Shown here in pieces: positions 39,203 to 48,123 of a stretch of 64,000 nt of DNA. The notes below the pieces were generated by a model. The model had not been told where the DNA came from. It searched no databases and saw only the letters and a list, made by a program, of their open reading frames with translations. The number at the start of each line of letters is the position of its first letter. Position 1 is the first letter of the stretch. The translations under genes were made by a program, and so were the position numbers. The stretch is from Pseudomonadota bacterium (GTDB lineage Bacteria > Desulfobacterota > Desulfobulbia > Desulfobulbales > Desulfocapsaceae): NCBI GenBank assembly GCA_018820855.1, contig JAHJNL010000038.1, positions 1 to 64,000 on the forward strand, written 5' to 3'.

Positions 39203-39620
39203 GAGGTCGATAGCTTTCAGACTTCTTCAGAGGCTGCGTGGCAGAATACGCAGGATGTCGAGACAGTCGGATCACCTTTTCTGTTTTTCAGCAAAAATAT
39301 CAAAAAAAAAGATCTTTTTTTTTAAGTACACACCCCCCTGCACCTCCCAATAACCTCTCTGAAACACAAACATTCCCCTTCACACACGCCTTTCCACAAG
39401 TAGTATCTGCAGCAAAGAGACGGAGAGCAAGAAGTAGCTCACTGCCCCATGGAGCAGTGCACACCCTCCTGTGCAATACGCAAAAATACCATGTGCGTAT
39501 TGTGCCAACAAATTCAGCACAATAGAAAAAATCGATGTTTTAACCAAAAAATATAGTTGATTTTTCCTTAGCGGAATGATATTTCTTACCATAACTCAAC
39601 ATGGAGGCACTGTTCGCACA
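39203..39620. other. gap between the copper block and the hydrogenase operon
   Basis: About 420 bases without a gene. A T-rich palindrome AAAAAAGATCTTTTTTT near 39301-39323 may end the previous transcript. The second half holds an array of inverted repeats (39471-39523), and then the likely promoter of the hydrogenase operon. Confidence 0.5.
39471..39523. promoter_or_regulatory. Array of three alternating half-sites upstream of the hydrogenase/hdr operon
   Basis: CAATACGCA (39474-39482) is a perfect inverted match to TGCGTATTG (39494-39502) over an 11-base spacer. The second arm continues into ATTGTGC (39499-39505), which is a perfect inverted match to GCACAAT (39517-39523), again over an 11-base spacer. 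Shared arms with an identical spacer suggest a multi-site operator for a dimeric regulator. It ends about 100 bases before the first gene. Confidence 0.55.
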
Positions 39621-40115
39621 ATGCAATCGACAAAACATACAACAATGATTTTTGGCTGTGGAAACGTAATCATGGGTGACGATGGCTATGGACCGGCTGT
39701 TGTAGATAAGCTAAATGCTTACTACAATCTTCCGGATAGTGTTCAGGCCATAGATGTAGGCACATGCGTCCGTGAGTATCTTTTTGATTATCTTCTGACA
39801 GAAGAAGGCAGACCTGATCAGATCATCATTCTCGATGCAGTTGATTTTCCAGATCACAAGCCTGGTGACGTATTTCAAATTTTCCCAGACACCATCCCAG
39901 CAAAAAAAATTCACGATTTTTCCCTTCACCAATTTCCCACCGTAAATTTACTGCAGGAACTTGAGCAACATACCGGAATCAAGATTCTCATCCTTGCTGC
40001 CCAGGTCAAATATATCCCGGAAGAAATTGAGCCGGGTCTCTCGTCCGCGATGTCTCTCGCCGTAACTGAAGCATGTGAACATATATCAAGAATTCTAAAC
40101 GATAACGTTAATTGA
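39621..40115 (+). CDS. Hydrogenase maturation protease (HycI/FrhD type)
   Basis: A 164-residue endopeptidase of the HyaD/HybD/FrhD family that trims the C-terminus of the [NiFe] large subunit once nickel is inserted. Seen: FGCGNVIMGDDGYGPAVVDKL (G-N-x-x-x-G-D-D-G-x-G nickel-sensing start), an Asp in ILDAVDFPD, and His in DFSLHQFPT. The ATG at 39621 has GGAGG at 39603-39607, spacing a little long. It is the first gene of the operon, 11 bases before the HdrD-like gene, and its target is presumably the MvhA encoded downstream. Confidence 0.88.
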   Translation: MQSTKHTTMIFGCGNVIMGDDGYGPAVVDKLNAYYNLPDSVQAIDVGTCVREYLFDYLLTEEGRPDQIIILDAVDFPDHKPGDVFQIFPDTIPAKKIHDFSLHQFPTVNLLQELEQHTGIKILILAAQVKYIPEEIEPGLSSAMSLAVTEACEHISRILNDNVN

Positions 40116-40126
40116 GGTGACCTTTT

Positions 40127-41578
40127 ATGATCTACGAATTTAAAGTCAGCGAAATGGCAGAAGAGTTTGGGGTACATCGAAACACCATTAGGAACTGGAT
40201 TAATGCCGGCACTCTTCCTGCCAAGGAAGGTCCCGGCCGCAAGTACCTTATGGAGTTTCATGAATACCAGATTCTCTGTGAAAAATTTGGGCGTGAACCA
40301 CATGTTCACCCCGGAAACCATGTCAACCCGGATGCTTTAGGCGCATTGGAAAAAGCCGATGTTGAGCCCTTGAATATTACAGGCATGAAGAGCCAGCTGG
40401 TGCAGGACTCTTCATGGGCGAATGCATGTTTGACTTGTGGAACCTGTGCAAGTGCCTGCCCTATTTCCGGCGTGGACGGACTCGATCCTCGAAAGATTGT
40501 CCGCATGGCAGCCCTGGGCATGGACAAAGAACTGATTGAATCGTCCTGGCCATGGAAATGCACCATGTGCGCGAAGTGCGAAGAAGCATGCCCTGCTAAT
40601 ATTCAGATCATAGCTCTGATGAGAAAAATACGCGGAACCCGTGATCGCGCCAAGGTTCCTGGGCCAATTCACAAAGGTGTCGCCATGTGCCTTGAGCGTG
40701 GCAACAACCTGGGAATCCCCAAAGACGACTTTGTGTTTCTCTGCGAAGAACTGGGCGAAGAACTGGCTGCTGACGAATGTCCGGGGTTTGTAACTCCCAT
40801 TGATGTGCATGGAGCAAGAGTCCTTGTCACCGTGAATTCCAAAGAGCCGTTTGGGGAACCTGACGACATGAAATGGTGGTGGAAGATCTTCTACGCCGCC
40901 GGTGAATCGTGGACCATATCATCTGAATACTGGGAAGGCGTGAACTGGGGATTATTTTCCGGTGACGATGAAGCAATGAAAACAATTGTCGGCAGAATTG
41001 TTGACAACATGAGGAGGCTGAACTGTCAGGTCCTCCTCCTTCCCGAGTGAGGCCATGCCTACTTTGCAACCCGGTCTGGGTTGAACAAATGGTACCCCGA
41101 AGCACTCAAAGAATTCAAAATCGTAACAGTATTCGACCTTCTCCTTGAATATATAACTGACGGGAAAATACAACTCGACAAATCAATTCACAACATTGCG
41201 ACTGCCTATCACGACCCATGCAATTACGGTCGAAAGTCCTTAAAGGCATTTGGACAGGCCTACTTTGAAGAAGGCCGCGCAGTGACCAAAGCCTGTTGTG
41301 ATGATGTAAGAGAACTGAATCCCAACAGAAACGGTGCCTACTGTTGTGGGGCCGGTGGCGGTGCCTGGGCCATGCCTTACTCCGACGAAAGGGTATTCTA
41401 CGCTCGCATCAAGGCACGACAAATCACGGAATCAGGAGCTGAACTGGTTATTGCGCCATGTCACAATTGCCGTGATCAGATAATGAAATCCATTAACCAT
41501 GAGTATGATCTGGGCATAAAGGTAAAGTACATTTGGCAACTTGTTGCTGATTCACTGATTATACCTGAGAAACATTAG
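40127..41578 (+). CDS. Selenoprotein: HTH domain + HdrC/HdrB-like (HdrD-type) iron-sulfur protein, TGA at 41048 read as Sec
   Basis: A 483-residue protein if TGA 41048-41050 (residue 308) is read as selenocysteine. Residues 1-60 form an excisionase/MerR-like helix-turn-helix (SEMAEEFGVHRNTIRNWI). Residues about 100-170 carry two 4Fe-4S motifs, CLTCGTCASACP and CTMCAKCEEACP, as in HdrC. The rest is HdrB/CCG-like: LLPEUGHAYF (Sec in place of the first CCG Cys), HDPCNYGRKS, CCGAGGGAW and APCHNC. The TGA is in frame with uninterrupted coding on both sides, and the usual residue there is Cys. Its ATG at 40127 follows TGAGGTGA. The protein should form the thiol/disulfide end of the Hdr complex with HdrA and Mvh. 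Confidence 0.9.
41067..41083 (+). promoter_or_regulatory. bSECIS hairpin of the HdrD-like gene
   Basis: CAACCC (41067-41072), loop GGTCT, GGGTTG (41078-41083): a perfect six-base-pair stem. It begins 16 bases after the TGA, and its loop begins 22 bases after. This position and the G-rich apical loop fit bacterial selenocysteine insertion elements. Confidence 0.8.
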
Positions 41579-41701
41579 AATAGAGAAGATTAGCCGTTAT
41601 CGCCGAAGAAATTAAGGCGAAGATCAAACAGTAGATACCCTACTATTGATAACTGGCTTGGATGTTACGTTTTTTTCAAAAACAGAGAGGAGAGGCCTAT
41701 C

Positions 41702-44700
41702 ATGCTTGACACAAAAAAAGTTGGGTCGGTAATGATTGTAGGAGGTGGAGTCACAGGGATGCAGACCGCTTTGGATCTCGCTGATTCAGGATACTACGTG
41801 TATTTGGTGGAGAAGTCCGGTGCCATTGGCGGTGCCATGGCTCAGTTGGACAAGACCTTCCCCACCAATGATTGCTCGATGTGAATTATCGCGCCAAAAC
41901 TGGTTGAGTGCGGTCGGCACTTAAATATAAAATTGATGACTCTCAGCGAAGTGGCCGGCATTGCCGGCAGTGCTGGGGATTTTACTGTAACTGTGAAAGA
42001 AGCTCCACGGTATGTGGACGTGAACAAATGTATTGCCTGCGGTGCCTGTACGGAGAAATGTCCGAAAAAGGTAGACAGTGAATATGACGCTGCAACCGGC
42101 AAACGCAAGGCCATCTATGTCAAATATGCCCAGGCAGTGCCTCTGAAGTACCAGATTGACCCGAACTCATGTATCAGATTAAAAAAACCCGGCGCCTGCG
42201 GTTTCTGTGAAACAGTGTGCGATGCCGGGGCTATCAATTTTGATGACACTGAGAAGATACACGAGATAAATGTCGGAGCCATTGTTCTGGCTCCCGGCTT
42301 TGAAGTGTATGACCCCAAAGATGCAGGAGTCTGGGGATACGGTACTTTTCCAAATGTAATAACCTCTCTGCAGCTCGAAAGATATCTCTCTGCCTCAGGT
42401 CCGACCGAAGGACATCTGGTACGGCCTTCAGACGGAAAGCCTGTCAACAAGGTTGCCTTCCTCCAGTGTATTGGTTCACGGGACGAAAACCTGTGCGGCA
42501 ACGGATACTGTTCCTCGGTTTGCTGTATGTATGCCATCAAGGAAGCAGTCATTGCTAAAGACCATGTTCCCGGTCTGGGAGCCTCTATCTTCTATATGGA
42601 TATGCGGACCCATGGAAAGGAATTTGACCAGTACATGGAACGAGCCAAAGAGGATGCAGGTGTTCGTTTTGTCCGATGTCGTGTCAACGGTGTGGAGACA
42701 GATGGAGACAGCGATGACCTGCGTTTGAGCTACGTGAATGAAGCAGGCCGCCAGGTTGAAGAATTCTACGACCTGGTTGTTCTCTCCGTTGGCCTGCAGA
42801 CGCCGAAACATGTCTTGGAACTTGCTGACAAGGCAGACATCAAACTGACTGCTGACAATTTTGCAGCTACCTCAGATTTTGCACCGGTGCAGACTTCACG
42901 GCAAGGTATCTTTACCTGTGGCGCTTTTGCAGGACCAAAAGATATTCCCCAGTCTGTTGTGGAAGGTTCTGCAGCTGCTGCTGCGGTTGCCGATCTGCTG
43001 GCACCGGCCCGTTTTGAGTTGTCTACAGAGGCTAGTTTTCCGCTTGAAAAAGATGTGTCAGCAGATGAACCAAGGATCGGTGTTTTCGTCTGTCACTGCG
43101 GTTCCAATATTGCCGGTGTCGTCGATGTAAAAGCGGTGGAAGAATACGCCGCCACACTCCCTGATGTTGTTTACGTAGAGCGGAACCTTTTCTCCTGTTC
43201 CCAGGATACACAGGATATGATTACCAAAAGGATTCAGGAACAGAATCTGAACCGGATAGTTATTGCAGCCTGTACCCCGAGAACCCACGAACCACTCTTT
43301 CGCGAAACCCTGAAATCCGCCGGTTTAAACGAATATCTCGTTGAGATGGCCAATATCAGGAATCATAATGCCTGGGTCCATAGCGCAGAACCAAAGGCGG
43401 CCACTTCAAAAGCCAATGACCTGGTACGCATGGCAGTGGCAAAGGTTGCCTACAGTAACTCCCTGAGACCTATTTCCGTACCAATTTCCCAGAAGGGACT
43501 GATTATTGGCGGTGGTGTATCCGGTATGACTGCCGCCCTGAACATGGCTGAGCAGGGATTCGAGGCGCATCTGGTGGAAAGAACCGACACCCTCGGCGGC
43601 AATGCTCTGCACCTGAAGCATACCTGGTCCGGAGAACACGTTCCAACTGCAGTTGCCAAACTTATCGATAAGGTTGTCTTACATGATAAGGTTATTATCC
43701 ACAAAGAATTTGAGGTAACTCATGTCGAAGGTTTTGTCGGCAACTTCAAATCCACCATCACCGGCAAGGACGGCTCCAAAAAAATTATAGAGCATGGTGC
43801 CGGGATTGTGGCCACCGGTGCTGAACCGTATATTCCCACTGAGTACAATTATGACTCTATCACCAGGGTTGTAACTTCAGTCCAGTTTGACAAGCTTTAT
43901 GAATTAAATGAAGTTCATGTGAAGAAGGCGAAGAACTTCGTCTTTATCCAGTGTGTGGGTTCTCGCGAAGAAGACAACATGTATTGTTCAAAGGTCTGCT
44001 GTACCCACTCGGTTCAATCGGCCATTGCTCTGAAAAAGGATAACCCAGGACGCAATATCTATATTCTCTACAGAGATATGCGCACCTATGGCCAGCGGGA
44101 AGCCTTATATAGGGAGGCAAGAAAACTTGGCGTGATTTTCATAAATTACGAACTCCATGGAAAACCAAATGTTCGCGAGAATGGCCAGGTAATCGATGTC
44201 GAGGTATGGGATCATGTCCTGCACCGACCATTGATACTGAACGCAGATATGGTCATTCTGGCCACAGCTATCCGCCCCATGGGAGATGCCTCGAAACTGG
44301 GTGCACTCTATAAAGTTCCTGTGGATGGAGACGGTTTTTTTCAGGAAGCACATGCCAAGCTCAGACCGGTTGATTTTTCAACTGACGGAATGTTTGTTGC
44401 CGGATTGGCTCATTATCCAAAACCGATCGAAGAATCCGTTGCCCAGGCTCTGGCTGCATCCGCAAGAGCAGTCACCCTGTTATCCAAAAAGGAAGTCTCT
44501 CTGGATGCCATCAAGGCAACTGTGGATGAAACACATTGTGACGGCTGCGCCCTCTGTGTTGATGTCTGTCCATACCATGCAATCACCCTTGTGGAGAAGA
44601 AAACAGATGATGGTGCTGATGCAGGTAAAATAATCCTGGTAAACAAAGCCCAGTGTAAAGGTTGCGGACTCTGTCAGGGTACCTGTCCCAAAAGAGGCGT

Positions 44701-44764
44701 ATATGTTGCCGGCTTCACAATGAATCAGATCAATGCTCAGATTCGGGCGGCTCTGGCAGCCTGA
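41702..44764 (+). CDS. hdrA: Selenoprotein: double HdrA flavoprotein, TGA at 41882 read as Sec
   Basis: A 1020-residue HdrA in which TGA 41882-41884 (residue 61) replaces the Cys of the highly conserved TNDCSMC segment (here TNDCSMU, then IIAPKLVECGRH). Domains: first FAD fold (GGGVTGMQTALDLADSG) with two 4Fe-4S groups (CIACGACTEKCP, CGFCETVC); then a second complete HdrA, with CHCGSNIAGVVD, CTPRTHEPLF, another FAD fold (GGGVSGMTAALNMAEQG) and two C-terminal 4Fe-4S motifs (CDGCALCVDVCP, CKGCGLCQGTCP). HdrA splits electron pairs from the hydrogenase between ferredoxin and the disulfide side. The ATG at 41702 follows AGAGGAGAGG. It is downstream of the HdrD-like gene and upstream of mvhD. Confidence 0.93.
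41904..41924 (+). promoter_or_regulatory. bSECIS hairpin of hdrA
   Basis: TTGAGTGC (41904-41911), loop GGTCG, GCACTTAA (41917-41924), eight pairs with one G-U. The loop starts 27 bases after the TGA, five more than in the other three genes, but starts GGTC, like the HdrD-like gene's loop. Confidence 0.65.
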
Positions 44765-44881
44765 ATTTAAAAACGGACAACCCGGAAGACCTTCGGCCAG
44801 CCTTGCCAGTATCGCATAGGCGACAGAAGGTCTTCCAGGCATGAACTATAAAGCTACACTCACATGAAAGGAGTAGATCAC

Positions 44882-45301
44882 ATGAACTTTGAGCCTAAAA
44901 TCGTTGCATTCTGTTGCAACTGGTGCTCCTATGCCGCAGCTGATCTCGCAGGGACTGCCAGGATGCAGTACCCACATAACGTACGGATTGTACGGGTAAT
45001 GTGCTCGGGCATGGTCCACCCTGAGTTTGTTATGAATGCATTATCTCAAGGGGCTGACGGGGTCATGATACTTGGCTGACACCTCGGCGAATGTCATTAC
45101 CTGGATGGTAATTATAAAGCGTTGGATCGTTCTGAGATGGTAAGCGAATTGTTGGAAGATTTTGGCTACGAACCGGAGAGGGTCAAGTTGACCTGGGTCT
45201 CTTCTGCCGAACCGGATAAATTTGTTGCAGCCGTAACTGAGATGACTTCAAGTATCAAGAAGTTAGGCCCTGTAAACAGTCAAGAAGCCCAGACCACATA
45301 A
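44882..45301 (+). CDS. mvhD: Selenoprotein: MvhD (2Fe-2S linker subunit), TGA at 45077 read as Sec
   Basis: A 139-residue MvhD, the 2Fe-2S protein that joins the Mvh hydrogenase to HdrA. Cys motifs: [15 protein letters not shown] (CCxxC) near residue 10-15 and VMCSGMV near 40; then ILGUHLGECHY with Sec at residue 66 (TGA 45077-45079), where MvhD homologues have Cys or Sec in GCxxGxCHY. Coding continues unbroken to TAA 45299-45301, with normal MvhD end content ([16 protein letters not shown]). The ATG at 44882 follows AAAGGAG; an upstream ATG at 44864 would place the ribosome site inside the gene. Confidence 0.93.
45096..45112 (+). promoter_or_regulatory. bSECIS hairpin of mvhD
   Basis: ATTACC (45096-45101), loop TGGAT, GGTAAT (45107-45112). 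The stem starts 16 bases and the loop 22 bases after the TGA, exactly as in the HdrD-like gene and mvhA. Confidence 0.8.
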
Positions 45302-45313
45302 AGGGAGAGAGAG

Positions 45314-46258
45314 ATGGGAGTAACTACTGCTTTGGAGTGGTTGGGATCCTGTTCGGGGTGTGAAATCGCAATCCTGAACATCGGTGAAGATCTCGTTCCA
45401 ATTATAACTGAAGTTCTGGATATTGTGCACGCTCCAGTTCTCATGGATCACAAATATTATGGCCAGTGCGGCGAAGGGCTTACCCTGACGATTCCGAATG
45501 CTGTCGTTGGTATCGTCACAGGCGGCGTCAGTAATCACGAACACCTTGAAGTCCTGGAAGAGATGCGCAGAAAGTGCACGGTGCTCATTGCCTTGGGCAG
45601 CTGTGCAACCCACGGGGGCATTCCTGCTTTGATGAACGGTCAGGATCGGGCTGACAGCTGGAAAGGGATTTTTAATACCATAACCACCGACCCGGGTGCG
45701 GAAATTCCCACTGTGGAAGTTCCGGCACCCCTTGATCGCGTCTATGCCTGCGATGAAAAGGTGAAGATTGACCTGCAGCTGCCGGGCTGTCCCCCGAATC
45801 CTGAACTTATCGCAGAGGTAATCATGTCCCTCGTCGAGGGAAGGGATCCGGTCCTGCCGGGTAAAAGCGTCTGCGACACCTGCCCTACCAAAAGAGAAGG
45901 CAAAGGGGCTGTGGATATGGTGAAGCGTTTTCTGGAAAATGCTGCGTTTGAGCCAGGTGCCCCCATTGACGAAATGCGCTGCCTGCTGGAGCAGGGGTAT
46001 CTGTGCATGGGTCCCGTAACCGCAGCTGGTTGTGCCAAGCGTGGAGCGCCCAGCTGTATCAGCGCCAGAGTTCCGTGCCGTGGCTGTTTTGGCCCTGTAC
46101 GCAAAGACGGCAACCAACTGCTTGACATGATGAATGCCCTGGCAAGTAACGGCATTGATTATAAATCAGTTATTGATCGTCGTTCAATTCTAAGGTTCTC
46201 AGGAGCACACGGCAGACTGCGTCCCGTGAAAAAGCAAGTTGAGAAGGAGGAAGGTTGA
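45314..46258 (+). CDS. mvhG: [NiFe] hydrogenase small subunit MvhG/VhuG
   Basis: A 314-residue F420-non-reducing-type small subunit carrying the electron-transfer iron-sulfur clusters. The proximal-cluster motif is EWLGSCSGCEI at the N-terminus, with ALGSCATHGGIPA and LQLPGCPPNP completing it. C-terminal clusters use CDTCPTKREG, GYLCMGPVTAAGCAKRGAPSC and PCRGCFGP. There is no twin-arginine signal, so the enzyme is cytoplasmic. The ATG follows AGGGAGAGAG, and the stop at 46258 is one base before the mvhA start. Confidence 0.95.
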   Translation: MGVTTALEWLGSCSGCEIAILNIGEDLVPIITEVLDIVHAPVLMDHKYYGQCGEGLTLTIPNAVVGIVTGGVSNHEHLEVLEEMRRKCTVLIALGSCATHGGIPALMNGQDRADSWKGIFNTITTDPGAEIPTVEVPAPLDRVYACDEKVKIDLQLPGCPPNPELIAEVIMSLVEGRDPVLPGKSVCDTCPTKREGKGAVDMVKRFLENAAFEPGAPIDEMRCLLEQGYLCMGPVTAAGCAKRGAPSCISARVPCRGCFGPVRKDGNQLLDMMNALASNGIDYKSVIDRRSILRFSGAHGRLRPVKKQVEKEEG

Positions 46259-46259
46259 A

Positions 46260-47708
46260 ATGGGAAAAGTATTAAACATAGCACCAGTTTCCCGCATTGA
46301 AGGGCACGCAAAAATAGCCATTCATCTGAATGATGACGGTAATGTGGAGAACGCGTATCTTCACATTCAGTCTCTTCGCGGGTTTGAAAAATTTATCGAA
46401 GGAAGACCTGCGGAAGAGGTCCCTCGTATCGTCAACCGTATCTGCGGCATTTGTCCGTGGATGCATCATCTTGCCTCAAACAAGGCTGTTGATGGTGCCT
46501 TTGGTGTCACCCCGACTCCTACCGGCTATAAACTCCGGGAAATGTGTCAGGTCATGGCGCATATCAATGACAAAATTCTGCACTTCTTTTTTCTTGCATC
46601 TCCGGATTTTGTCCTGGGTCCTGATGCGGATTACTCTGTTCGCAACGTAATAGGAGTCGTCAAGGCTGCTCCGGAGCTTGCCACTCAAGTTGTTAAGATG
46701 CGCCAACTCGGGCAGATGATGCTTGATAAGTTTGCCGGCAAAGCAATTCACCCTGTTGCCGGAGTTGTCGGCGGCTTTGCCAAGCCGATGGTTGAATCGG
46801 AACGAAAAGAACTTCTTGCAGGAACCCGAACGCTGCTCGACTTTTCCACTTTTGCCCTGGATTTTGCCATCAACAATGTCTTTGCAAAATACATGGATGT
46901 CATCGGAGAACTTGGTGTGATCAATACCGGTTTTCTGGGAACGGTAGACCGTGAGGATGGTTCTCTTCGGCTTTACGACGGAATACAGAGATTGATGAGA
47001 AATGATGGCAGTTATGTTGACTTCGAAGGTGAAGACTATGCCAGCTATATCGGTGAACACGTGGAGCCATGGGGTTACTCAAAAATGCCCTATGCAAAAT
47101 CCTGGAACGAAGGGTTTGATATGGACCTGGCCCAGCCAAAAGGTATCTACCGTTCCAACACTCTGGCCAGAATTAATGTCTGCGATAAAATATCCACCCC
47201 AAAGGCCCAGGCGGCACTGGAGGCCTTCCGAAGTTCCTTTGGTCGTCCTGCACAGCAAACTCTGCTCTATCACTACGCCAGGCTGATTGAACTTATTTAT
47301 GCCTGCGAGCGTACCATTGAATTACTCGAGTGGGAAGGCATTACCGATCCGAACGTAAGAGCAAAGGCTGAGCCGAAAGCTGGAAGAGGAGTGGGGATCG
47401 TTGAAGCACCAAGAGGTACACTCATCCATGATTATACAACCGATGATAACGGCTGTATTACCAGTGCAAATCTTATTGTCGGAACGACTCATAATATTGC
47501 ACCAATGAATATGAGTGTGAAACAGGCAGCAACCACTCTCATAAAAGATGGTGTGTATAACGAAGGATTACTGAATCAGGTGGAAATGGCTGTCAGGGCC
47601 TACGACCCCTGAATGTCCTGTGCAACTCACCGCCTGGATGGCGGTATCCCTGTAGCAATTAGTATTGTCAATCCTGAAGGAACTGAGATCGACAGAATTG
47701 TCAATTAG
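46260..47708 (+). CDS. mvhA: Selenoprotein: [NiFeSe] hydrogenase large subunit MvhA/VhuA, TGA at 47610 read as Sec
   Basis: A 482-residue large subunit with the L1 motif RICGIC (residues 60-65) and the L2 motif DPUMSCATH, Sec at residue 451 (TGA 47610-47612). In ordinary enzymes this first L2 Cys is a terminal nickel ligand; its replacement by Sec defines NiFeSe hydrogenases. Reading through adds 31 residues to a TAG at 47706. Cleavage after His457 would remove a 25-residue tail, consistent with the protease gene at the head of the operon. Stopping at the TGA would delete the active site's second Cys pair. The start at 46260 follows GAAGGAGGAAGG. Confidence 0.95.
47629..47645 (+). promoter_or_regulatory. 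bSECIS hairpin of mvhA
   Basis: ACCGCC (47629-47634), loop TGGAT, GGCGGT (47640-47645). The stem starts 16 bases after the TGA and the loop is identical to that of mvhD. Confidence 0.8.
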
Positions 47709-47880: not shown

Positions 47881-48123
47881 ATGTCAGACAAAAAAAGATC
47901 TCTGGTACGTGCAGAGAATCCCAGTGGAGCATGTGGCAAACTGGATCATATGACTGTTGAAGAGCTCAAGGCCAGGGCCGTGGGAGATGAATTTGATGGA
48001 ACCTGTCCGGCTTGCGGTCAATTTCACCTGACTCGGGCTGAAATCGAGAAAATAGAAGAAAAGAAAATCACCGAATCTGAAAGCTACAAAGCCATGAAAA
48101 CCGAGGCTGAAGCGCCTGAGTAG
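47881..48123 (+). CDS. Small Cys-containing protein (80 aa) in the hydrogenase operon
   Basis: Function unknown. An 80-residue soluble protein with GACGKLDH near residue 18 and GTCPACGQFHLT near residue 42, a possible zinc ribbon of three Cys and one His, and a Glu/Lys-rich helical tail (AEIEKIEEKKITESE). The ATG follows AGGAGGCGGT. It sits between the [NiFeSe] large subunit and the HypD-like gene and is closed by its own intrinsic terminator, so a role in hydrogenase assembly or in holding the complex is a reasonable inference only. Confidence 0.7.
   Translation: MSDKKRSLVRAENPSGACGKLDHMTVEELKARAVGDEFDGTCPACGQFHLTRAEIEKIEEKKITESESYKAMKTEAEAPE

Follow-up and report, generated by a model that had tools for sequence, protein, structure and literature searches.

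Four probable selenoproteins and a predicted DNA-binding domain in a hydrogenase/heterodisulfide reductase-type operon of the Desulfocapsaceae

Are four TGA codons, each lying in the open frame of a different gene of one hydrogenase/heterodisulfide reductase-type operon, read as selenocysteine (Sec), and if so, what might the encoded proteins do? The codons are found in a bacterium of the family Desulfocapsaceae (assembly GCA_018820855.1), within the 64,000 nucleotides (nt) of contig JAHJNL010000038.1, positions 1 to 64,000, that were analysed as a whole and are referred to as the window; all features are on the forward strand unless stated otherwise. One TGA each was located in the genes for a GlpC/HdrD-like protein, called GlpC in the following (40127-41578, 483 amino acids (aa); TGA at 41048-41050, residue 308), for HdrA (41702-44764, 1020 aa; TGA at 41882-41884, residue 61, context NDCSMU, where U denotes Sec), for MvhD/FrhD (44864-45301, likely start ATG 44882; TGA at 45077-45079, residue 72 of 145) and for MvhA, a large subunit of [NiFeSe] hydrogenases (46260-47708, likely start ATG 46260, open frame from TTG 46239; TGA at 47610-47612, residue 458 of 489 when numbered from TTG 46239, context DPUMSCATH). 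Coding is open to the natural end in all four, and the limits given in a preliminary description, 40127-47708, proved exact. Its phrase "four genes in a row" is right as to the four TGA genes but not as to their adjacency, as mvhG (45314-46258), which encodes the hydrogenase small subunit MvhG/FrhG and contains no Sec codon, lies between mvhD and mvhA, i.e. four of five genes carry a TGA. Based on the evidence given below, these four TGAs very probably encode Sec.

The preliminary description had foreseen that standard annotation would break these genes and, indeed, under translation table 11 all of them read as broken fragments. Nonsense or frameshift damage, or errors of the assembly, would yield the same picture, and a few relatives do look damaged, e.g. 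hdrA of locus L129, which has one more TGA and two further stops, or mvhA of L073, which is split. The openness of the frames does not decide the matter: by the thresholds used, a TGA between two open stretches occurs at 43 places in the window, the four operon sites included, and none of the three others inspected resembled a Sec site. As such places are not rare, openness alone is weak evidence; the early judgement that chance is very unlikely is upheld by the orthologues. A search of 257 genomes of the order revealed a GlpC relative at E <= 1e-30 in 113 of them, and 93 operons with distinct GlpC peptides were retained from 150 locus rows (overlapping sets plus the window; 57 repeats removed). 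At the readable sites TGA and cysteine (Cys) codons are found in 64 and 24 operons for HdrA, 51 and 26 for MvhD, and 64 and 0 for MvhA; as all readable sites of these three proteins are either TGA or Cys, chance can be excluded. At the GlpC site 66 operons have TGA, 23 have Cys and 4 have serine (Ser). The same TGA codons thus recur in dozens of genomes, the commonest state being Sec in all four proteins (UUUU in the order GlpC, HdrA, MvhD, MvhA; 46 of 93 operons), and no further in-frame stop interrupts the window's genes. Together with a downstream constraint that tracks the Sec state (see below), the orthologue TGAs led us to reject damage and assembly error, which we regard as extremely improbable.

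Alternatively, TGA might be a sense codon for tryptophan or glycine throughout the genome, as any residue at the TGA would open the frames. However, hdrA, mvhG and hypD themselves terminate at TGA, the TGA sites align with Cys, and neither tryptophan nor glycine is seen at any of them in the 93 operons. Moreover, the genome, which totals 4.82 Mb in 106 contigs and is listed as 100% complete, has a single match to tRNA-Sec above the cut-off (73.4 bits, gathering score 47), and its anticodon is TCA. A global code change was rejected on these three grounds and has a negligible probability. The search for sel genes that the preliminary description had suggested also yielded selA (609.5 bits), selB (367.7 bits) and selD (366.6 bits, itself with one internal TGA), so that tRNA-Sec, selA, selB and selD are all present. 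The homologue alignment, likewise suggested there, places each TGA on Cys or Sec, apart from Ser in 4 of 93 operons at the GlpC site, and in solved chains Cys is found at the HdrA, MvhD and MvhA sites in those alignments shown that reach the site. The HdrD-like site had been called less documented. This doubt is lifted, as a "GlpC" selenoprotein family has been published (PMC1794560, in part) and the equivalent site is TGA in 11 and Cys in 5 of 16 distant GlpC homologues (about 34-51% identity), which were hand-picked so that both kinds are included. Those of loci L190-L199 and L204 are TmcB/HmcF-like, lack the N-terminal helix-turn-helix (HTH) discussed below and have an in-frame TGA at the Sec308 equivalent, i.e. 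this selenoprotein group is wider than the operon.

If the TGAs are recoded, the RNA just downstream should matter, and this region is indeed constrained. In Sec orthologues (n = 66 for GlpC, 64 for HdrA, 51 for MvhD and 64 for MvhA) the excess of synonymous identity in codons +1 to +14 past the TGA lies above that of all comparable codon windows of the same gene, with 0 of 371 (GlpC), 0 of 716 (HdrA), 0 of 80 (MvhD) and 0 of 371 (MvhA) reaching it. In Cys or Ser orthologues the effect is gone in HdrA (426 of 624 codon windows reach it) and MvhD (24 of 54) and is much weaker in GlpC (28 of 338); MvhA, Sec wherever it is readable, offers no Cys comparison group. The constraint also holds in Sec orthologues less than 76% identical to those of the window (0 of 354, 0 of 506 and 0 of 73 codon windows for GlpC, HdrA and MvhD, respectively). 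The same regions contain short hairpins of the Sec insertion sequence (SECIS) type, 26-35 nt from the T of the TGA, in glpC (41067-41083, CAACCC-GGTCT-GGGTTG), hdrA (41905-41923, loop GGTCG), mvhD (45096-45112, ATTACC-TGGAT-GGTAAT) and mvhA (47629-47645, ACCGCC-TGGAT-GGCGGT). Their loops, GGUC(U/C), GGUCG, UGGAU and UGGAU, respectively, belong to hairpins that are present in most of the 23-24 aligned sampled orthologues per gene; the E. coli fdhF element likewise has a GGUC loop. The SelB/tRNA-Sec system would insert Sec at these hairpins just 3' of each TGA.

Several observations weigh against this interpretation, most of them concerning the hairpins. In some of the sampled sequences a fold other than the drawn hairpin is lowest in energy, e.g. 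in mvhD of L110, L079, L134 and L171, hdrA of L171 and glpC of L156. Pair covariation, counted for mvhA and glpC only with 24 sequences each, is thin: in mvhA 91.7% of the cells are paired, with one compensatory pair and pair 20-36 broken in 12 of 24 sequences, and 80 of 500 shuffles match the compensatory count and 1 of 500 the covariation score, whereas in glpC 97.2% are paired without any compensatory change, no better than the shuffles. An Rfam scan of the window gave no family at its gathering score. Finally, four of the 93 operons have Ser at the GlpC site. As covariation is weak, it is the synonymous constraint that we take as SECIS evidence.

The Ser operons are L057 (= L128), L058, L059 (= L135) and L163, with codons TCG, TCA and TCC in L057, L058 and L059; MvhD has Cys in these operons.

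What might four Sec residues do in one operon? The MvhA, MvhG, MvhD, HdrA and HdrC domains of an HdrABC-MvhAGD-type complex are detected (Pfam, NCBIfam), and solved heterodisulfide reductase/hydrogenase chains rank among the best matches of the subunits. In Pfam terms these are HTH_17, 4Fe-4S and CCG domains in GlpC, Pyr_redox and Fer4 in HdrA, which has two flavin (thioredoxin-reductase-like) domains, FlpD in MvhD (PF02662, 189.2 bits), Oxidored_q6 in MvhG and NiFeSe_Hases in MvhA, with HycI upstream and HypD downstream of the operon. GlpC comprises a winged HTH (residues about 2-55), an HdrC-type 4Fe-4S region (98-159) and an HdrB-type CCG region (230-480). Thus, the five genes likely encode one cytoplasmic bifurcating complex that oxidises hydrogen (H2) and uses a disulfide-type acceptor. 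H2 would be oxidised by MvhA and MvhG at a [NiFeSe] site in which Sec458 would be a nickel ligand. MvhD would hand the electrons to HdrA, which would split them by flavin-based bifurcation, one share going to ferredoxin and the other to GlpC with its fused HdrC/HdrB-like parts. GlpC would then reduce the disulfide-type acceptor, the predicted site being a single non-cubane iron-sulfur cluster next to Sec308. The Sec sites, the downstream constraint, the machinery, the domain make-up and the conservation of the operon are what the sequence establishes; nickel ligation, bifurcation and its direction, and the acceptor, be it DsrC-type or another disulfide, we infer from family knowledge. As to type II HdrA, with two thioredoxin-reductase-like domains, a 2025 survey states, with regard to archaea, that no biochemistry has been done (PMC12054007, in part).

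The acceptor side depends on GlpC. Its structure model (mean predicted local distance difference test score, pLDDT, 83.4) aligns with EtfD (Z score 26.1, 365 residues), HdrB (19.4-20.4) and HdrC (10.4). In the alignment with EtfD (9ojn), for which the sequence match is weak (E 7.1e-5), Sec308, Gly309, His310 and Ala311 lie opposite Cys581, Pro582, His583 and Cys584. In EtfD Cys503, 538, 581 and 584 are ligands of a linear cluster, and His583 and Cys637, 672, 673, 709 and 712 are those of a non-cubane cluster (PMC13083937, in part). GlpC retains counterparts of all six non-cubane ligands, H310, C365, C406, C407, C445 and C448, and in residues 230-311 C300 and Sec308 are the sole remaining candidates. 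We therefore infer that GlpC holds one non-cubane cluster with Sec308 beside the predicted His ligand. HdrB has two complete non-cubane sites, GlpC has one complete ligand set, and this counts against the proposed function, as disulfide reduction by the HdrB mechanism is not assured. The selenol of Sec308 could replace the lost second cluster by holding half of the disulfide substrate; given the Ser in four operons, it is probably not essential everywhere. As the top NCBIfam relatives of GlpC are HmcF, TmcB and DsrK, each under its cut-off, an acceptor from the sulfur pathway such as DsrC is plausible.

The reading of the codons could be right even if the complex were not a bifurcating H2:disulfide reductase in vivo, e.g. 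if it ran in reverse, releasing H2, or used another donor. In seven operons with over 3 kb of sequence downstream and 700 nt upstream mvhA is missing, six of these also lack hycI, and in L150 the subunit genes are followed by hypF, hypD and an AIRS-domain hypE-like gene, i.e. GlpC-HdrA-MvhD can exist without this hydrogenase. On the other hand, the subunit set matches MvhAGD plus HdrA plus HdrC/HdrB-like parts, and the maturation protease accompanies the hydrogenase: of 65 MvhA-containing operons with 700 nt or more of upstream sequence, 64 have hycI upstream of glpC, and six of the seven MvhA-less operons with enough sequence lack it. We thus consider a different function rather unlikely and keep to the H2-oxidising bifurcating complex. 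In the window the HycI-type hydrogenase maturation protease is encoded at 39576-40115 (PF01750, 75.4 bits; likely start ATG 39621), directly upstream of glpC. Downstream, at 47881-48123, a conserved further member of the operon encodes a protein of 80 aa and is found in 53 of 53 MvhA-containing and 4 of 7 MvhA-less operons with more than 1800 nt after the last subunit gene. Both genes probably belong to the same unit. In 27 aligned sequences G19, H23, C42, P43, C45, G46, H49 and L50 of the 80-aa protein are invariant (CPxCG); no Pfam or NCBIfam family was found at the thresholds used, and its structure model (mean pLDDT 59.5) is too poor for use. Promoter, terminator and tandem-repeat scans gave nothing informative.

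The relatives also tell how Sec is retained. After UUUU the states of the 93 operons are CCCU (11), UU-- (7), CCC- (7), UUU- (5), UUCU (4), U--- (4), SCCU (3), CC-- (3), CU-- (1), SUC- (1) and C--- (1), where C and S denote Cys and Ser and a dash an absent or unreadable site. Cultured strains are among the UUUU carriers: Desulfopila aestuarii DSM 18488 (L113), Desulfosediminicola flagellatus IMCC35005 (L118), Desulfoprunum benzoelyticum DSM 28570 (L120) and Desulfogranum marinum DSM 2058 (L144). The first three sites are readable in 77 operons and read UUU in 51, CCC in 18, UUC in 4, SCC in 3 and SUC in 1, whereas MvhA is Sec in 64 of 64. GlpC, HdrA and MvhD thus appear to switch between Sec and Cys largely together, as a pattern that is not statistically proven; the exceptions are UUC in 4, SUC in 1 and CU- in 1 operon. 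On a quick tree of bacterial GlpC only (89 rows, with the long branches L062 and L070 meeting) 7, 5 and 6 state changes are needed for GlpC, HdrA and MvhD, respectively. Rows without Sec in these three are scattered: a Desulfobulbus-type clade of 15, an L130/L132 plus Ser clade of 5 and, separately, L121/L122, L170 and L056 (contig-cut, MvhD unread). For GlpC and HdrA 5 independent pairs changed in the same direction 4.3 times on average and never in opposite directions (p 0.06-0.13); for HdrA-MvhD and GlpC-MvhD there are 4 pairs each, 2.6 and 2.8 of them the same way and none in opposite directions (p 0.25-1), i.e. none of the sign tests on the GlpC tree was significant for any of the three gene pairs. 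L121 and L122 come from metagenome-assembled genomes (MAGs) that also bear a UUUU operon (record series of L103 and L102), so that Sec and Cys forms seem to coexist there. Two more full-length HdrA loci are present in the window's genome (G000, C77 and C99; L174, L182 and L173, L181): one has a TGA in both HdrA and the nearby MvhD gene, the other in neither, and these pairs fit the co-switching pattern. The nearest named record is a Desulfocapsa sp. MAG with a GlpC of 96% identity.

A second question is raised by the N-terminus of GlpC. Residues 6-41 match HTH_17 (34.0 bits, cut-off 27), and residues 2-55 align with DNA-bound BldC (6ama; Z 5.8, 54 residues), which is a modest match. The HTH is found in 92 of 93 operons (GlpC alignments begin at residue 1-7), the remaining one being cut by the contig end, and its recognition-helix residues are conserved. 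Each BldC protomer binds a 9-bp direct repeat (PMC5859096, in part), and two tandem 9-bp direct repeats, GGCACTGTT CGCACAATG, form a predicted operator at 39606-39623, which ends in the likely hycI start codon and is the window's best match to a repeat matrix (18.1 bits); a second, inverted match lies on the reverse strand at 39490-39516 (16.1 bits). The repeats read roughly (T/G)GCACAnnn. The pattern KGCACWNNDBGCACAA has one match in the 4.82-Mb genome, at this operon, and a reversed control pattern likewise has one.

Across the operons, without any model, gapped 8-mers such as GCAC-N5-GCAC are common to up to 63 of 87 5' regions, compared with at most 11 in five shuffles; at -120 to +5 they are shared by 56-59 of 90, whereas four equally large blocks from further upstream reach no more than 14 of 89. 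As the hycI coding block also shares gapped 8-mers among up to 39 of 92 loci, this partly reflects kinship. A 27-bp matrix reaches at least 12 bits in 88 of 90 operon 5' regions (180 hits), compared with 30 hits in the rest of 1358 kb, having been trained on the same 5' regions in which the hits were counted. A fairer cross-test, with a seed still picked by eye from all data, used a matrix from the 64 Sec operons only: 22 of 26 Cys/Ser operons exceeded the 99th and 10 the 99.9th percentile of 1900 control windows. In most hycI-less operons the repeats precede glpC instead (best sites at -45 to -250 from the start, 7 over 10 bits); in L121 and L146 none were found before glpC. In 93 genomes of the family a tighter pattern gave 47 hits, compared with 3 for its reversed control, and 25 of the 47, compared by hand, lie about 505-600 bp upstream of an HTH-type glpC. 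Genomes with a close GlpC (E under 1e-140) have a hit of the tighter pattern in 30 of 58 cases, those without in 5 of 35 (Fisher p 0.0003, uncorrected for kinship). Twenty of the 22 other hits were inspected: 4 are no more than 500 bp from the gene for a [NiFe] hydrogenase small subunit (two of them divergent), 2 at hypF seem to be a single site on the ends of two contigs, 3 precede a dihydroorotate-dehydrogenase-like gene, 5 share one conserved place that is probably coding, and 6 are found elsewhere.

As a side aspect, the repeats near periplasmic [NiFe] small-subunit genes and hypF are from L214, L219, L222, L225 and L212, all carriers of HTH-type GlpC, and a predicted hydrogenase regulon is possible in these relatives. 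The hits upstream of the dihydroorotate-dehydrogenase-like gene (NF005741) are from L215, L217 and L221, with three genus codes. In L067, L149, L065, L155, L153, L161, L068 and L166 (Desulfobulbus-type and related) matches on the opposite strand are found shortly downstream of the operon and may belong to the transcription unit that follows. The equivalent [NiFe] hydrogenase/hypF locus of the window's own genome shows no such repeats, its best score being 6.6 bits; scores do not exceed 10.3 bits in four other loci of this genome and 11.9 bits in the other loci fetched, so that no further site is proposed.

The HTH might also be a relic or a structural module, with the repeats bound by another regulator or acting in the RNA. 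The window's repeats overlap a GGAGG and the start region of hycI, the BldC match is modest, five genomes of the family without an HTH-type GlpC have one tight hit each (four at one conserved, probably intragenic place), and among 16 loci with homologues that lack the HTH, 5 likewise score at least 12 bits with the matrix. What speaks against this alternative is the near-universal HTH with its conserved recognition helix, the repeats before glpC where hycI is absent and the binding of 9-bp direct repeats by BldC. Its chances are, in our view, just short of even. GlpC nevertheless is the leading candidate regulator of its operon by predicted repeat binding. We speculate that it may be a bifunctional "trigger" selenoprotein, i.e. 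a catalytic subunit whose BldC-type winged helix would bind tandem 9-bp repeats before its own operon, as well as close to hypF and periplasmic [NiFe] hydrogenase genes in some relatives, and would link H2 and redox state, perhaps also selenium supply via UGA308, to expression, a proposal that we put forward tentatively. Should translation stop at UGA308 when selenium is short, the resulting protein of 307 aa would retain the DNA-binding domain. As Cys-type operons keep both HTH and repeats, selenium sensing can be at most one use.

The operon adds to a known case in which selenium occupies four positions along a single electron path from H2. Moreover, its Sec/Cys pattern is a natural experiment on Sec retention, as three subunits tend to vary jointly and the hydrogenase is Sec in all 64 readable cases. 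The novel lead is a selenoprotein subunit that may regulate its own operon. Worth closer study are its predicted DNA-binding domain, together with the candidate operator that matches it, and a Sec/Cys state that three subunits tend to share while the fourth stays apart. Binding of the repeats by GlpC would mean that a selenoprotein and subunit of a redox enzyme serves as transcription factor, which, if true, gives a handle on the regulation of H2 metabolism in environmentally important sulfur bacteria. In titles and abstracts of the literature outside subscription papers and preprints a fusion of GlpC/HdrD with a DNA-binding domain was not found, HdrR being a separate regulator there.

How does the operon compare with known systems? 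The operon type with four selenoproteins has been in print since 2006, and the present operon is a further member, not a discovery. Zhang et al. (2006, PMC1794560, in part) described operons of hdrA-frhD-frhG-frhA with GlpC in Syntrophobacter fumaroxidans, which has three of them, and in Desulfotalea psychrophila, and a 2026 review names the "four-selenoprotein-gene operon" (PMC13188914, in part). The glpC-hdrA-frhD-frhG-frhA operon of PMC1794560, found in Deltaproteobacteria, has the same five genes in the same order and the same four selenoproteins; the hdrA genes are described there as clustered with themselves, whereas here HdrA is a single chain of 1020 aa with both flavin domains. The terms "helix-turn-helix" and "DNA-binding" have 0 occurrences in the main text of that paper, and what is described here in addition is hycI, the 80-aa gene, the winged helix of GlpC and the 9-bp repeats. 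In Desulfobacterium autotrophicum HRM2 the HdrA1 of the mvhA2DG-hdrA1 cluster likewise contains Sec, as does the adjoining Mvh hydrogenase; HdrD4 is counted among the selenoproteins, and the cluster is described beside the [NiFeSe] hydrogenase HysAB; an HTH of HdrD is unmentioned in the consulted parts of that paper (PMC2702500). With MvhAGD-HdrABC of methanogens (5odc, 8rvu, 7bkb and others) HdrA, MvhD, MvhA and the HdrC-type domains align, with Cys at the Sec sites shown; unlike there, HdrB and HdrC are fused here, one non-cubane ligand set is incomplete, and a second HdrA flavin domain and an HTH are added. From TmcB, HmcF and DsrK GlpC is set apart by scores far below the cut-offs (201.2 of 750, 176.5 of 735 and 135.8 of 400), and the 16 distant homologues mentioned above align with it from residue 56 or later, i.e. 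past the HTH. BldC and GlpC residues 2-55 share a MerR-like winged helix, and 9-bp direct repeats are found in both systems; however, BldC is a stand-alone regulator of 68 residues with AT-rich repeats (PMC5859096, in part), whereas here the domain is fused to a redox subunit and the repeats are of the GCAC type.

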